From: Arthonia radiata
Lineage: Eukaryota; Ascomycota; Arthoniomycetes; Arthoniales; Arthoniaceae
Direction: 5' to 3'
DNA: 64,000 nucleotides
NCBI GenBank assembly: GCA_002989075.1
Contig: PSQN01000004.1
Span: 1,922,001 to 1,986,000 of the forward strand
Position 1 is the stretch's first letter, and every line of letters begins with the position of its first letter. Under the pieces are notes generated by a model. That model searched no databases and had not been told where the DNA came from. It saw only the letters and a list, made by a program, of their open reading frames with translations. A program made the translations under genes and the position numbers. This document shows positions 1,233 to 39,833 of this stretch, in pieces.

Positions 1233-3062
1233 TTACAGCTCACCCTCCTCACGCGCCTTGTAATCATTTGCTATTCCCTGCTGCTCCTTCTGCCAACCAT
1301 CTGCCTAGGGAGAAAATGTCAGCACAGTTTCTTCCCAAGGTCTTTCAGGTTCCAAACAAAGTGTCTGGAGCCAGCGCCAGCGCGCTAGCTGCCTGACAAA
1401 GGTTGTAAGGCAACAGAAGGGAATGCCTGGATGCTCTAAGACTTACCATCATTTTCGCGACATTCTTACCCATAAGCGCACTCGTCTCCATCGTACTGAT
1501 GAAGCCTTCTATGGCGCCTGTATACCACAAGCCATCACCACCTCCTGTCTTGCCATCAAGTCGCAACGGCTCGAAGGTGTCTCGCGGATATTCGATAGGA
1601 TAGCTGAGCCACTTTTTGCGGTACATCCAGGTGATGTCGCCATCGCTGATGCTGTCGTCGGACTGCAGCTCGAGGTCGAAGAGCCTTGCGAGGAAGGCGT
1701 CAGAAACGGATGTAGGCGTGAATATCTTGTAGAGCAGCTCAGGGTTGCCTGTGGTCGGGTGAGTTACCGCGCGAAGGGTGGAAACAGAGAAGAACTCGGG
1801 TATCTGGTCCTTGCACTCGATGCTACCTGGCGGCTGGGCGCAGTCGGGCATTGTAGTCAAGAAGGTCGTCGGCACCGCGTCAATCTGACTGAGATTGAAG
1901 TAGTCGCGGGATAGTGGTAGAGCTGTCGTGAATAGCGTCACGTGCAGTGTCCTGTACTCATCGTTCCTGGGCATGTGCTTCAGGTCGGCAGCACTCCAGT
2001 CGATGCCAGTCTGATGGAACGGAGTAGCGACCACGACGGCGTCGTAGGCGTTTTTCTCAGGAGAAGACTCCCCTTGCGCTTCGAGAATGTAGCCTTCTGC
2101 GTCTGCATCGTTCTTGCTGACCGATGCAATCTCAGTCTCCAAGCGAAGATTTGCATGCGCTGCTTCCGCCATGCCAGCGAAGATCTGCCAATTGCCACCA
2201 TCGACAGACACAGCTCCATCGGTTGCCATGCTAACCATGCTTTCGACACCGTGGATCTCGTCGAGGTTCGACGCATAGTTGACGCGAGTAGCAGCTTGCA
2301 TGATCTCCCAGGCGAACTTGCCGTCCAATCCGTTCGCTTTCAGGTATTCCCAGCCTGTGGTATTTGTCACCGTGCGCAGCTTTATGGTGGATACAGCTGA
2401 CGTGAGATCATTGAACGGAAACAGCGGCCACTCGTACATCTTGAGGAATTGTTCAACCACGCTGTTGACGAGACTCTGAACACGCAATGGTGCTGTACCG
2501 AAGCGAAATAGCAGCCGCAGCTTGCGCCACCATCCTTCTAACGGATTTGAAGGCGTGCTGATGGAGTGTGTGAGGCGGATGGAGTTGCCATCCCAAATGC
2601 CCAGCAAATTGTCGGGGTCTTCTTCTTCTGTGTCGTCTGTGGACAGATTGAAGGCTTGGACGGCATCTTGAAGGATGTGATTGACCGACACAAATATCGA
2701 GCCGCCAAGTTCCACAGGATAGGCTGAGCTGTCGTATGCGTTGACGGTTGTACTGCGACCGCCGACATAAGAGTTGCGCTCGTAGATGGTGATGTGAAGG
2801 GGGATGTTGGCTTCGTCCGCGTATTGACGGAGATGAAATGCAGTGGATGTGCCTGCTGAGCCGGCGCCTGTTCATGCCATCAGTATATTTGCCTTAGTTG
2901 CCAGCTTTTCATTGCCGCACCTATGATTGCGACTCGCTTCTCGGTATGATCTGTGAGGACAGTCTGCTCTCCTGGGGTCGGAGGGTGAAGCGCAGCGGCG
3001 ACTACGCAAAACCAGACAGCTAAAACGAGGTACAGCGGTGACCGGGCTGAGATTTGCGCCAT
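1233..3062 (-). CDS. Prenylcysteine oxidase (prenylcysteine lyase), three exons
   Basis: This predicted FAD-dependent thioether oxidase releases the isoprenoid aldehyde and cysteine from prenylcysteines left after turnover of prenylated proteins, in the lysosome/vacuole or secretory path. Exons are 2921-3062, 1447-2867 and 1233-1304 (544 aa). The ATG at 3062 starts a hydrophobic signal peptide (about residues 1-24). The first intron (2868-2920) splits the Rossmann motif, and splicing restores VAIIGAGSAG at residues 44-53. The remainder matches the prenylcysteine lyase family (YERNSYVGGRST, PVELGGSIF, a late GLWYTGAIEGFISTMETSA segment). The second intron (1305-1446) is exactly 142 nt and is one of the introner-like elements described separately. 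The last exon adds 23 charged residues ending REEGEL. Without the second splice the frame would run to a stop near 1345. Confidence 0.9.
1305..1446 (-). mobile_element. Introner-like element 1 (142-nt intron of the prenylcysteine oxidase gene)
   Basis: This phase-0 intron starts GTAAGTCTTAGAGCATCCA and ends with TGTGCTGACA followed by a pyrimidine-rich stretch and CCCTAG. It has the same length as the introns at 4445-4586, 37971-38112 and 38722-38863. It shares with them the 5' block (offsets 1-16), CAGCTAGCGCGCTGG (56-70), CTTTGTTTGGAA (86-97) and the branch-site block (121-130). Hand alignment with the 38722-38863 copy gives about 90 identical positions of 142 with no gap. A host function other than splicing is not evident. 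Confidence 0.85.
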
Positions 3063-4283
3063 CGTGTTGCTATGATATGCGGTAGTTGTTGGAATGGTGA
3101 GCTTATGGTGAGGATGCGAAAGGAAACGTGTCGTATACGATGTGGTTCAACTCGGACATCTGGCATGCGCATAACTTGGTAGATGGGCGGCAAACATGAC
3201 TGTAACACTGTGTTGGTCTCCAGACCGGCTGTGAGAGCTTAGCCCACTGGATGGCAGAGGACGACGAAGGTCGAGAGGTGGAAGATGGCAGTACGTACAT
3301 AAGTGCTGCCGTTTCTTGGCGCCTCCAAAAGCTTTGCCACCTGCAGCACGCCTCCCCCTTGAACTTGTGCCTCTTCTCTTTAGTCTTCACCCACTGTTGC
3401 TTTTGCTTCGTGCGATACGGCGGTCGCATGCCATTGGAAGGCTCCTGGCTGGCTGCGACAAATGAATGACAACCACCTCGGTGAGATGTAGAGAAACGGA
3501 GAGTTGCACTGCTCTAGACTCATCCCACGGCCTGTCAGTCGCTGCCACAGCGATGACAGAAGATTACAGCTGGCCCATCCGCGAAGCAACTCATCGTCCG
3601 CAAAATGGCTTTTATTTGCTCTCCGATCATGCGACACAAGACTGCCTTGACGGTGGGACCACTCGCTGGCCGTCGCCACGGCTGCGTCGCTCACAGCTGA
3701 ACATGGCTTACTTCTTGCCAAGTATCACTGCTGTGATCGTAGGCACCAGGTTCGACGCGCCCTTGATCGCAAATACTTCCTAATTGACTTTCCTGCTGTC
3801 TGTGTATCAGCTCTTGATGGATCTACGAATCCGAGGCTCATTGGTGCGCCCCTTGTCCGGTAGACGCGAGGCTGCTATGGCCTGGCGTTTGTTGGCTCTC
3901 GGCACGCAAGACCACTACTCCACCGCGTAAGCTGACAGCCCGCGTCTCGATATGAGCATTACTCGCATCAAACTCTGGCCCGACTGTCGCACACTCGTGC
4001 CAGTAAGCCCGAGTGTCTCGCAGAGCTGATCCCTAACCCGCCGTGCCAAAATTGCGTCTCCGCGATCTACCCGCTCGACTACTAGAATATGACGCCGCAT
4101 CCGGACAATGCGCCCCTCAGACCATCACTCATCAGTGGCGTTAGTGAGTAAGAGGCGGCCCCCATGTGCCATAAAGTATCGGGTGCTTTCCAACTTAATC
4201 TTTGTCCCTTGTCTCTTTCTCCTTTTGCGCGTTATGGACCGTGGGGCAAGGTGAAGTGGCCTGCAATACGTTGACCCTGTAAG
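3063..4283. other. Divergent promoter region, no gene seen
   Basis: About 1.2 kb separates the prenylcysteine oxidase start (-) from the rhodopsin-domain gene start (+). ORFs here are short and have no family resemblance. A CCCTAACCC telobox-like string lies at 4031-4039. A CT-rich run at about 4197-4222 could be a core-promoter pyrimidine tract of the rightward gene. Confidence 0.4.
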
Positions 4284-5582
4284 ATGGTTTACGGTGAGAA
4301 CGACCGTGGTCCCACCCTCAACGCAGTGAGTTGGGGGTTGGCTGCTGTAGCGACAGGTAGGTCAATATCCCAATACACTGCGAGACGTCGATCATAGCAG
4401 TCGATATGCATGCAAGTCATCAAGCTAATAATATGACGCACGCAGTAAGTCTCAGAGCACCCACACATAACGATTTATGGCCGCAAAACTTTCACTGAAC
4501 AGCTAGCGCGCTGAAGTTGTCTCAAAGAACACCGTTTGAGAATTGAACAAACTTCACAAGCGGCTGTGCTGACATCCATTGCTCAGGTCTTCGTTAGTCT
4601 GCGGATTCTGTCTCGTACTGTCCTTTCCAAATTCAACGCCGGCCTGGATGACTTCTTTACACTGTTCGCGCTCGCAGTCATCATCGCGGTGGCCGTGGTG
4701 GCGTCGATAGCCATTGATGCTGGCCTCGGGAGGCACATCACAGACCTCTCCCCTCAAAAGCAGAGTGATGCAGTCTACAAACTCTCCATTCTCAACTCCA
4801 TCGGTGTCTGGACCTATGCGCTTCCCAAACTTGCCATGGTTGCGCTACTGCAGCGCATCTTCAACCTCAACAAGGGCGTGCTCATTTTCTTTTGGACCCT
4901 CTGCGGCATCTGCTTAATTTTGACGATGGCCATCTCCGTCCTCTGGTTCGAGCAGTGTCGGCCTGTTGCGCATCAGTGGAATCCAGTCCAAGTGCCGGGC
5001 ACGTGCTTGCCAAAGCATGTGATTGTTGACCTCGCTTACTTCACATCCGCTTACTCCGCCTTCCTGGATTTGCTCTTTGCACTCTATCCGCAGTATATCA
5101 TCTTCAACCTCAACATGCGCCTATCCAAGAAGATCGCCGTTGGGTCTGCGATCGGTCTGAGTGCCATCGGAACTATTGTGGCGTCCTACAAAATGGCGCT
5201 CTTCCCAACACTAAAGAAAAGCATGGATCCTACGTGGGATCTAGTCCCCTTGCAGCTATGGGGTATCGTGGAAACGGACGTGCTCCTGGTGTCAGCATCG
5301 CTGCCGACCATTGGCCCTCTGATCAGAACGGTAAAGGAGCAAACCAGCAAGCTGTACAAGATGTCGATGACCCGGAGTCGGCGCACGGGTGCGAGCGAAG
5401 AGCCGCAAAGCATGGGGACCAAAGGCACCGAAACTACGCGAGGAGGGGATTTCAAGCCGCTCAGTTCGACAGACGACATTGCGCTCAGAGACGTAACGTG
5501 GCAAGGCAAATCGGATGAGGAGCAGGGTCTGCCGCAGACGAGCTTGCCGAGGCCGATAGGAGGGCCGGCTTATGATTGGTGA
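4284..5582 (+). CDS. Fungal rhodopsin-domain integral membrane protein
   Basis: The predicted seven-helix plasma membrane protein belongs to the fungal 'rhodopsin domain'/Pth11-like family, whose roles are largely unknown (some are surface sensors). Exon 1 is 4284-4356 and exon 2 is 4588-5582 (355 aa). The N-terminus MVYGENDRGPTLNAVSW followed by a helix and FVSLRILSR is the family's opening. A conserved acidic loop (AGLDDFF), a Trp-rich middle and a Cys-containing extracellular loop (EQCRPVAHQW) follow. After the last helix comes a polar cytoplasmic tail of about 80 residues. The intron is a nested stwintron (see the separate entry). The apparent ATG at 4536 lies inside that intron and is not the start. 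A single intron using donor GTAGCG at 4347 would also keep frame but leaves three residues fewer before the conserved LR. Confidence 0.8.
4357..4587 (+). other. Stwintron: intron split at its 3' splice site by an introner
   Basis: The external intron has donor GTAGGT at 4357, branch-like GCTAATAATATGAC near 4424-4437 and the bases CA at 4443-4444. The internal 142-nt intron runs 4445-4586. Removing the internal intron joins CA (4444) to G (4587), recreating a CAG acceptor. The second splice then joins ACAG to TCTTC in frame (Ala-Thr-Val-Phe). Direct splicing from 4357 to the internal acceptor at 4586 would instead run into a TAG within four codons. The spliced protein has 18 residues between RGP and LR, which is the spacing I expect for this family. 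Confidence 0.7.
4445..4586 (+). mobile_element. Introner-like element 2 (internal intron of the stwintron)
   Basis: It is 142 nt, starting GTAAGTCTCAGAGCACCCA and ending GGCTGTGCTGACATCCATTG then CTCAG. It shares CAGCTAGCGCGCTG at offsets 56-69 exactly with the 1305-1446 element and has about 89 identical positions of 142 with it by hand count, with no gap. It lies on the opposite strand of the window from the other three copies. Confidence 0.85.
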
Positions 5583-37350: not shown

Positions 37351-39833
37351 TCAATTGTTTGACTTCATTGCGCGCTTGAACGTAGAGGAAATGAACCGTG
37401 TGCCAGTCATCGCCGGCGGTGATAATGAGCCACCACTACGGGGCTGTTGCTTGATGGTCATCGGCTGCACTTCTTCGATCTGCGCGTACTGTCAGTCAGA
37501 CTTGCTCGTCATTGTTCACCACATTAGACCCTGACCTCTCCATCCTCCTTCGTCTCCTCTGCAACGGCATCTATCATCCTGTTGAGATAGTCATCTGCAG
37601 GTCCCATCCGCGAAACGCTGGATCGATGTGGCAGCGTAACCGCCCTCGTTCCCTGTGAGGATTTACGGCCGTTCCCAGAGCCGCCATGGCTACTACTCGA
37701 TGTCGGCTGCCAATCGATCAGTCTTCCCTCTGTCATCCGCTCATCAACGGGCTGTCTCTGAGCTGCATTGCGCTGCGTGTCAACACCAGCCCACCACGGG
37801 TGTTTCTCAGCAGCGTTTCCGAGACGGTTCATCGCGCTCGATCGGCCTGCCCCTGCCAGTGTGGGAAAGCCGCTGACTCGAATCGGAGCGAGTTGTTCGC
37901 GGTTTGCGCCAGTGCCTGCCGTATTCTCGTAGTACGGTTGAGCTGCCCGGGGCCCGCGAGGAGGCTCGATCTAGAGAAAAGTGTCAATAGAGCAACATCT
38001 GAAGAATGTTATATTTTCCAAAAACGTGCGTTAAGGCGATGCCGTCGCACCGGCTGCAACGCATTGCCTTTTCAGGCAGCGGAACAAAGTGTGTGGATGC
38101 TCTGAAACTTACCTGTAGCGGTGGGCTATGAGTAGGTCTCAACGAGGCTGTGGCGTGGACTTCCGAGTCCGTGAAGCCCAAAGCGAGCATACTCTTCTTG
38201 AGAGCACCCGTGCGCGCCAAGGGTGGAATGCGGGTGAAGAGCCGATGACACCACTCTTCGAGCAGCCAGAAGCTGTGGTACATTTGCGCCGAATAGGGAT
38301 CGAAGCCCAATGACTGTACATGGACGGGCCTCGTCACACACTTGGGTGGGCCTTCCTCGCACTTGCCGTACGATGCGTTACCCAGGAGATTCCTTAAAGA
38401 CCAGGCAATGCAGACATTGGCGATCTCGGGGACCCCAAAGTCAGCAGGATCTTGGAGCGCACGACGCATTGTGCGGTGGTTCTCGAACCCCCACTTAATC
38501 AGAGCAGCTGTCGTAACGAACAGAATGACCTCAATGCCGTGCTGCCTGGGGCAGTTCTGTTCCATGATTGTCAGCTGAGATTGCGTGTTTCTTTTGACCT
38601 TGTCTGAATAGGTATTTCTTGGAAGGCAGGAGCATGTAACTTACTGAGTTTTGGCAGCCCTTAGGGTGACTCTCTTGCTTGCAAGGGTAGAGCTTGTTGT
38701 AAAGGAATTCTTTATCATAACCTACGAGTAAGATGTCAGCACAGCCCGTTCTGGAGTTTAGTAGAATTCCAAACAAAGGAGTATAAAGCGGCGCCAGAGC
38801 GTAGGCTGCCCGGCAACGACTCTTGAGCGACAGAACGGATCGTATGGCTGCTCTGAGACCTACCCTTGGACAGAAGCTGGTCGAACCACAGCTTGTGACA
38901 GTCATAGATGGGTGACAATCTTCCGTTGGTGATAGTAAGCTGGGCAAGCCTTTCTGCTGGTATGCCTGGATGGGAATGAGCAATGCTCGCGACGTCGGGC
39001 CCCGGCACCGCCGGAAGAATAGCTGGGGCTGCCTTTTCAAGAGGACAGTAGCTGCTGATCGGCGGTACGGTCAGTATGAGTTGAGTTTGGAGAAGCTCCT
39101 CCATTCTGTTCACATACCTCGTGGTCGATGGACGATAGTAGTTGTTGACCACGGACGGTCGGTAGGAATCCATCGCCAGGCAGCGCGGCGCAGCACTTTG
39201 CCGAGAGCCTGCACCAACGCCGATACCATGGCGCGTTCCCTCAAAAGGAACCATCGCCATCCTGTTGGCATCCTGACTGTGCCCCACAGTCGATGAAGGG
39301 CCGGCTTGGGCGCGCTCCTAAAGTTTCGGGTGTTAGCAGAAGAATTATTTGGACCTGAACAGCATTGCCATTGGAGTTCCTAGGGGCTTTATGCGCGTTA
39401 TTGCATGATGCCAGCGATTGAGATCTTGATTGGGCCACGCAGGAGGCTGTGGACCTACTTCTTCAAGCTCGCTCGTCAGGCGAGCGCGCTTCCGACTCTT
39501 TGTCTTCTGATTATGGAGATCTTTCACGGCTTGGCGAAGAGCTTCTTGGATTCCGACATCTGGAATAAGTCGAATTAGCATTTCTACCGCTAGTGATTGG
39601 AAGCCTGCCGAACTCCTTTGGTCCCGATATCAGATGGGAAGGAGCGGGGCGTCTGATCTCGTACCTTGACCACAGTAGCGGATGGCATAAGAGGCGTCAT
39701 CACCATCATCGATAGGGTCCAGCTGGAGCTGCGAGAAGAGTTTGAAGAACTCGACTTCAGATGCATCAGGCCGGGCGGTGAGCGCCCGGTACTGCTCCGT
39801 GCTGAGGACGAGACAAAGTGGTCTCGATGCCAT
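37351..39833 (-). CDS. Unrecognised multi-exon gene carrying two or three introners
   Basis: The family is not recognised. Inferred exons: 39665-39833, 39459-39559, 39118-39317, 38864-39054, 38645-38721, 38113-38556, 37536-37970, 37351-37479 (581 aa). All junctions keep frame. The 63-nt intron 39055-39117 is frame-neutral and therefore less certain, as is the last one (donor GTCAGG; otherwise a stop occurs at 37524). Visible features: MASRPLCLVLSTEQYRAL start, a basic helix (HNQKTKSRKRARL), a Cys/His cluster (YDCHKLW, YPCKQESHPKGC, then NCPRQHG) that could bind a metal, a helical region (EVILFVTTAALIKWGFE, IANVCIAWSLRN), and a disordered Ser/Arg-rich tail. Introns 37971-38112 and 38722-38863 are 142-nt introner-like elements. 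Confidence 0.7.
37971..38112 (-). mobile_element. Introner-like element 3 (142-nt intron)
   Basis: This phase-0 intron is between PPLQ and IEPPRGP codons. It starts GTAAGTTTCAGAGCATCCA. At offsets 87-97 it has a TTTTTGGAA block in register with the other copies, and ends with TATTGACACTTTTCTCTAG. It is the most diverged of the four clear copies but equal in length and alignable without gaps. Confidence 0.75.
38722..38863 (-). mobile_element. Introner-like element 4 (142-nt intron)
   Basis: This phase-1 intron splits a Gly codon (LLSKG then YDKEF). It starts GTAGGTCTCAGAGCAGCCA. It shares CTTTGTTTGGAA (offsets 86-97) and TGTGCTGACAT (121-131) exactly with the 1305-1446 copy and ends CTCGTAG. 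It lies only about 600 nt from element 3 in the same gene. Confidence 0.85.
39318..39458 (-). mobile_element. Possible degenerate introner (141-nt intron)
   Basis: This phase-0 intron joins SELEE to ERAQAG codons. It has donor GTAGGT, a TGCTAACA branch block near the 3' end and acceptor CTTTAG. Its length (141 nt) and weak matches in register (GTAGGTC then CAG near offset 10, ACGCGC near offset 61) hint at a decayed member of the 142-nt family. The match is too weak to be sure. Confidence 0.35.

Follow-up and report, generated by a model that had tools for sequence, protein, structure and literature searches.

In the 64,000 nucleotides of Arthonia radiata DNA analyzed here (the window), a gene with a fungal rhodopsin domain (PF20684) carries two intron-like pieces that overlap by a single base. 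We judge it likely that they form a bimodal stwintron, which arose when an introner inserted immediately upstream of the last base, a G, of an older phase-1 intron (CA^G). In our view an older intron and an introner that landed one base inside its 3′ end gave birth to the locus, or at the least make it up today.

Anatomy of the locus

The anatomy of the locus, its repeat family, and its reading frame can be read directly, and all features given here lie on the forward strand. Exon 1 (4284..4356) comprises 73 nt from ATG 4284, reads MVYGENDRGPTLNAVSWGLAAVAT plus G, and ends in phase 1. It is followed by an 89-nt intron, probably the older of the two (4357..4445), with GTAGGT as donor (4357-4362), a branch-like CTAAT (4425-4429), and CAG as acceptor (4443-4445). 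The final base of this intron, G4445, is also the first base of the 142-nt introner (4445..4586), which has the donor GTAAGT (4445-4450), a branch-like CTGAC (4569-4573), and a CAG of its own (4584-4586). The overlap of the two is this one nucleotide, and neither lies simply inside the other. Directly 3′ of 4586 stands GTCTTC, the G of which (G4587) is the putatively displaced base: it would complete the acceptor if the introner left first and would start exon 2 if the 89-nt intron left first. Exon 2, with its stop codon, runs from 4587 to 5582 (4587..5582) and encodes the PF20684 domain.

The original prediction had placed both pieces exactly to the base. It had also described the acceptor CAG as split by the introner; A4444 and G4587 do flank the introner, but the acceptor itself is intact, since G4445 completes CAG. 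Absent from it were the one-base overlap, an in-frame model with GTGAGT at 4326, and an open frame from ATG 4433.

Excision of both pieces creates an ACA|GTC joint (Thr-Val-Phe) in frame and a 355-aa protein, the PF20684 domain of which scores 137.6 bits against a cut-off of 27. Direct joining of 4356 to 4587, that is, excision of 4357-4586 in one step, reads GGT CTT CGT TAG and so ends in the early stop that had been foreseen.

A stwintron is recognized by a splice element of one intron that is interrupted by another, and this is what is seen at G4445, provided that both are spliced. Donor, branch, and acceptor motifs are present in both introns, and one-step excision from the external donor fails, with 20 other single-intron models remaining open. 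The two Gs at the 5′ edge and the G past the final acceptor (G4356, G4357, and G4587) are those of the bimodal type. The donor GTAGGT of the 89-nt intron is off-consensus at one place, departing from the GURWGY quoted in PMC9024468; 3 of the 70 introner donors tallied have this sequence.

How might the locus have arisen, and how would it be spliced?

In the birth that we propose, a member of the introner family would have inserted at CA^G of an older phase-1 intron in the rhodopsin-domain gene. The introner's initial G would have rebuilt the old acceptor CAG at the moment of insertion, and the displaced G would now sit behind the introner's own acceptor; with that G replaced from the introner itself, such an insertion could be viable. 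The pre-mRNA would then contain two complete U2-type introns, 4357-4445 and 4445-4586, with one base in common.

Were the introner to leave first, A4444 and G4587 would complete the acceptor (the [A2,3] reading). Were the 89-nt intron to leave first, G4356 and TAAGT would form a GTAAGT donor with 4586 as its acceptor (the [D1,2] reading), and the sequence is equally readable either way. Both routes would lead to an identical mRNA with the joint ACA|GTC; if the splice instead ran straight from the 5′-most donor to the 3′-most acceptor, a frameshift and a stop would result. The order of removal is not forced, since the acceptor is restored by the G at the introner's start and a G also closes exon 1. 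As far as the sequence indicates, either intron can be removed first to give the same mRNA, and the earlier view that the introner is required to leave first is not supported, G4356 and G4587 being interchangeable.

The introner family

The first search of the organism's own genome (33.5 Mb) with the 142-nt piece returned 20 other matches. Two consensus queries gave at least 50 and at least 46 matches (with 40 of 152 candidates scored for the one and 40 of 130 for the other). At E values up to 1e-3 the introner has 88 matches in 56 sequences, 87 of them distinct (one place is present twice) and the window copy included, a figure that is a lower bound for the genome. When the window introner and 16 copies were aligned end to end, which omits 4 of the 20 other copies as partial or unclear, 17/17 rows started with GT and ended with AG. 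Many copies in different places, the ends of which coincide with GT..AG, are what is expected of an introner.

Exact removal of the introners left 36 of 53 arrays open over 90 + 90 nt (the other 17 fail), compared with 23 and 19 when the removal was shifted by 1 or 2 nt and 3/53 when the arrays were left unspliced; this test omits 15 of 68 distinct arrays, which are without clean outer sites. Such restoration of the frame supports the introner copies as real introns.

The window introner is degenerate, with 73.9% identity to the consensus (20th lowest of 82), so the insertion event would not be recent. Its folding does not differ markedly from that of shuffles (z −0.77), and 9 pairs and no covariation were seen in the 17-copy consensus; we therefore make no structural claim for it. 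Its sequence letters were found in no paper in the literature searched.

Some further observations may be recorded. Three more copies lie on the minus strand of the window (1305-1446, 37971-38112, and 38722-38863), with 84, 65, and 70% identity to the consensus. Copies with a GC donor instead of GT occur in L044 near 2999 and in L083 near reverse-complement 209, and in L101, within a stretch unlike a simple gene, parts of introners lie near each other on the two strands. The PF20684 domain has 158 matches in the same genome, exon pieces being counted separately.

Is the two-step product right?

It is important to remember that reading frame alone proves little here, because 20 single-intron and 269 double-intron GT..AG models from ATG 4284 keep the frame of exon 2. 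The two-step splicing of the original prediction does explain the protein and uses canonical-looking sites. Against profiles of paralogous proteins, 277 distinct products from 291 models were scored.

When the profile is built from L009, L096, and L097, first place of 277 goes to the two-step product at 55.7 bits; the single intron 4330-4560 reaches 53.9, 4347-4586 reaches 43.3, 4326-4586 reaches 24.3, and the downstream-ATG product 22.0 bits. With a profile of L009, L028, and L031, the two-step product is second of 277 at 29.0 bits, after 4330-4560 at 29.7 and ahead of 4347-4586 (19.0) and of 4326-4586 and the downstream-ATG product (12.7 each). Of the two, the latter gives the fairer comparison, since the two-step protein had served as the query that found L096 and L097; L009, L028, and L031 came from a PF20684 family search. 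All five paralogues combined place the two-step product first, at 51.6 versus 50.1 bits for 4330-4560. Judged from these sequences, protein fit is sufficient to reject 4347-4586, 4326-4586, and the downstream ATG, but does not separate the two-step product from 4330-4560.

Conserved spacing between GP and LR had been put forward as a further argument. Counted between GP and the R of LR, it amounts to 22 residues both for the two-step product and for 5/5 uninterrupted paralogues (L009, L028, L031, L096, and L097), a sixth paralogue, L095, being without the GP motif. The mean hydrophobicity of the first segment over 19 residues is 1.82 in the two-step product versus 1.52, 1.06, and 0.96 in three rivals.

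The alternative that survives best, and an improbable one, is a single long intron ending at 4586 that starts either at GTAGCG (4347..4352) or at GTGAGT (4326..4331), with a slightly shorter protein and no stwintron. Both versions keep the frame, and GTGAGT is a canonical donor that recurs in 6 of the 70 introner donors tallied, compared with 0/70 for GTAGCG. They would cost the first hydrophobic segment 3 and 10 residues, respectively, their profile scores fall short of the two-step product (43.3 and 24.3 versus 55.7 bits; 19.0 and 12.7 versus 29.0), and the closest paralogue, L026, is predicted to splice at the position equivalent to 4357. The joint of 4346 to 4587, which uses GTAGCG and had originally been named as the outcome to watch for, is thus disfavored.

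We find it harder still to credit a gene that starts at ATG 4433 (4433..4435), in which the introner would be an ordinary exonic insertion (MTHA|VFVSLR) and the older intron would be absent. The frame is indeed open when the introner alone is removed. Against this, exon 1 from ATG 4284 and its L026 counterpart are alike in sequence, length, and start, and the shortened product, which is without most of the first hydrophobic segment, scores 22.0 versus 55.7 bits (12.7 versus 29.0).

The single intron 4330-4560, which protein fit leaves standing, would use the donor GTTGGG and an AAG acceptor within the introner, the 3′ end of which would be translated (AVLTSIAQ). It is in frame, has the same GP-to-R spacing as the two-step product, and matches it closely in all three profiles (53.9 versus 55.7, 50.1 versus 51.6, and 29.7 versus 29.0 bits). 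What speaks against it is splice-site quality rather than protein fit: the donor is poor, inspection by eye found no YTRAY-like branch within 4520-4560, and the introner's own donor and acceptor would go unused. Taken together with the predicted splice of L026 at the 4357-equivalent position, this makes the model very improbable. The remaining GT..AG combinations among the 20 single and 269 double models were considered and rejected.

Which intron came first?

The two-step product, which we prefer, leaves two orders of arrival to be weighed, and here the closest paralogue found is informative. L026 (37-44% identical) ranks directly behind the gene itself among the matches, and its predicted structure has a 73-nt exon 1 ending in phase 1, followed by a 55-nt intron (GTACGT..CTAAT..TAG). 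Past this predicted intron, VILR aligns with VSLR of the window gene, so that the position and phase are the same as those of the 89-nt intron. The two exons 1 are identical at 11/24 residues, a level reached in 0/20000 shuffles. Seven single-intron models keep the frame of L026, and the one with the predicted 55-nt intron leads them narrowly (8.4 versus 7.2 bits). Comparison of the 89-nt intron itself with that of L026 detected no similarity beyond chance (340/500 shuffles were at least as good).

In L026 a first exon of equal length is followed by a predicted plain intron that agrees in position and phase with the 89-nt intron, which is therefore probably the older one. The introner was thus probably preceded by an intron at exactly this place and in this phase, as judged from one paralogue (not an ortholog), the intron of which is predicted. 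The original prediction had likewise described an introner landing in the acceptor of another intron, and with L026 this has become the probable course of events.

In the reverse order, the introner would have come first, into an exon (ACA^GTC), and the 89-nt intron would have appeared later inside its donor, a [D1,2] birth. The sequence reads equally well in this direction, the exonic and intronic insertion contexts are alike (A^G), and 5/6 paralogues examined (L009, L028, L031, L096, and L097) have no intron at the 4357-equivalent position. The predicted intron of L026 at the exact phase-1 position counts against it, as does the fact that the 89-nt intron is not a repeat: the piece 4357-4445 has a single match in the 33.5-Mb genome, itself. 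We regard this order as unlikely to a high degree. An in-register birth (CAG|GTAAGT..CAG|TCTTC), as in the introner arrays, with a later shift of one base has in its favor that zero-gap head-to-tail junctions are common in the genome (16), but it requires loss of a G on the left and gain of a G on the right, compared with which a single CA^G insertion is simpler, and we give it hardly any credence.

Do introners land on splice junctions?

The proposed insertion before the G of an acceptor can be set beside the other introner copies in the genome. Among the copies examined, 16 zero-gap head-to-tail junctions were found (AG|GT, with a zero-length exon), at L041, L043, L047, L049, L052, L055, L057, L072, L077, L079, L081, L083, L087, L092, and L093. 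Adjacent copies have a mean identity of 0.637 versus 0.657 for other pairs, and a neighbor was the nearest relative in 0/32 tests. With neighbors thus no more similar than copies paired otherwise, the arrays look like independent landings, and tandem duplication as their source was rejected on the same figures. Zero-gap junctions also resemble recursive splice sites.

Intron borders are often of the G^G kind. Solitary introner copies favor G^G (14/41), with G as the preceding base in 27/41, and the A^G site is uncommon (2/41, window copy included). A hunt for copies preceded by A gave 51 pattern matches, 12 of them with A directly before an intact GTAAG, and 10 of these 12 were inspected (the window, L072, L093, and L098-L104). 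By eye, the introner lies within exon-like sequence in L098, L099, L102, L103, and L104; L100 has no introner match. In L101, L093, and L044 (L044 from outside the pattern list) the introner looks as if it overlapped by one base with another introner, or with an intron-like end, in front of it; the junctions, read by eye in L044 around 3140, L093, and L101 around 342, are CTAG/GTTAAG, TTTTAAGTAAGT, and TTTAGTAAGT. Among the 10 inspected, with L072 unjudged, no second case of an introner behind an ordinary unique intron was recognized besides that in the window.

A further search gave 74 matches, seven of which were inspected (L105-L111). In L105 a second introner match ends 4 nt upstream, in L107 an intron-like end lies upstream of the introner (by eye), and in the other five no neighboring introner or intron-like end was seen. 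Separately, L045 has at reverse-complement 3001-3299 an introner and an intron-like stretch with a single G between them (TTAG|G|GTAAGT), which may be a one-base exon or another complex intron.

We tentatively suggest, at somewhat less than even odds, that introners in this genome repeatedly land on splice junctions, where in-register landing would give arrays and landing one base off, before the acceptor's G, would give one-step stwintrons thanks to the G that the introner carries. If this is true, introner mobility would be a general source of stwintrons that can be observed directly.

Relation to known systems

For the origin of stwintrons, PMC5639578 offers in-place maturation (stwintronization) or break repair. 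At the present locus the two partners are distinguishable, since one is a mobile intron present in many copies and the other is a resident intron whose position is matched in a paralogue, so that the birth event is readable from the sequence. The case illustrates how simply nested introns might come into being, and it offers a one-base rule: when an introner lands just ahead of an acceptor's G, the resulting stwintron can be viable from the outset.

No description of an introner landing in the splice site of a resident intron was found in the accessible literature, most subscription journals lying outside the search. As far as these searches show, the new element is a recognizable introner as one stwintron partner, and we make no claim to priority. 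The bimodal [D1,2]/[A2,3] type has already been described, in the alternative oxidase gene of Helminthosporium solani (PMC5639578). Like the present locus, that stwintron has two overlapping U2 introns, two exclusive excision orders that lead to one mRNA, and a G at both outer edges. The difference is that one partner here is a recognizable repeated introner and that splicing here is deduced from the sequence. For the lipS and bioDA stwintrons, treated in the same source, the likeness is an internal intron that arose inside a pre-existing intron at a conserved position; stwintronization or break repair is proposed for it, and the paper's text does not name an introner.

The introner-like elements (ILEs) of Dothideomycetes (PMC4457414) are similarly repeated, intron-sized, GT-to-AG elements in unrelated places, and three of them lie 1, 8, and 3 nt from the positions of regular introns in other species. 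Here, in contrast, the target would be the 3′ splice site of an older intron and, within the arrays, other introners. Finally, the sister stwintrons of Hypoxylaceae (PMC8469720, PMC9024468, and PMC12403724) combine nested introns with introner-like spread, as does our case. There, however, a whole [D1,2] stwintron spreads as a unit, whereas here a simple introner would have joined a resident intron.
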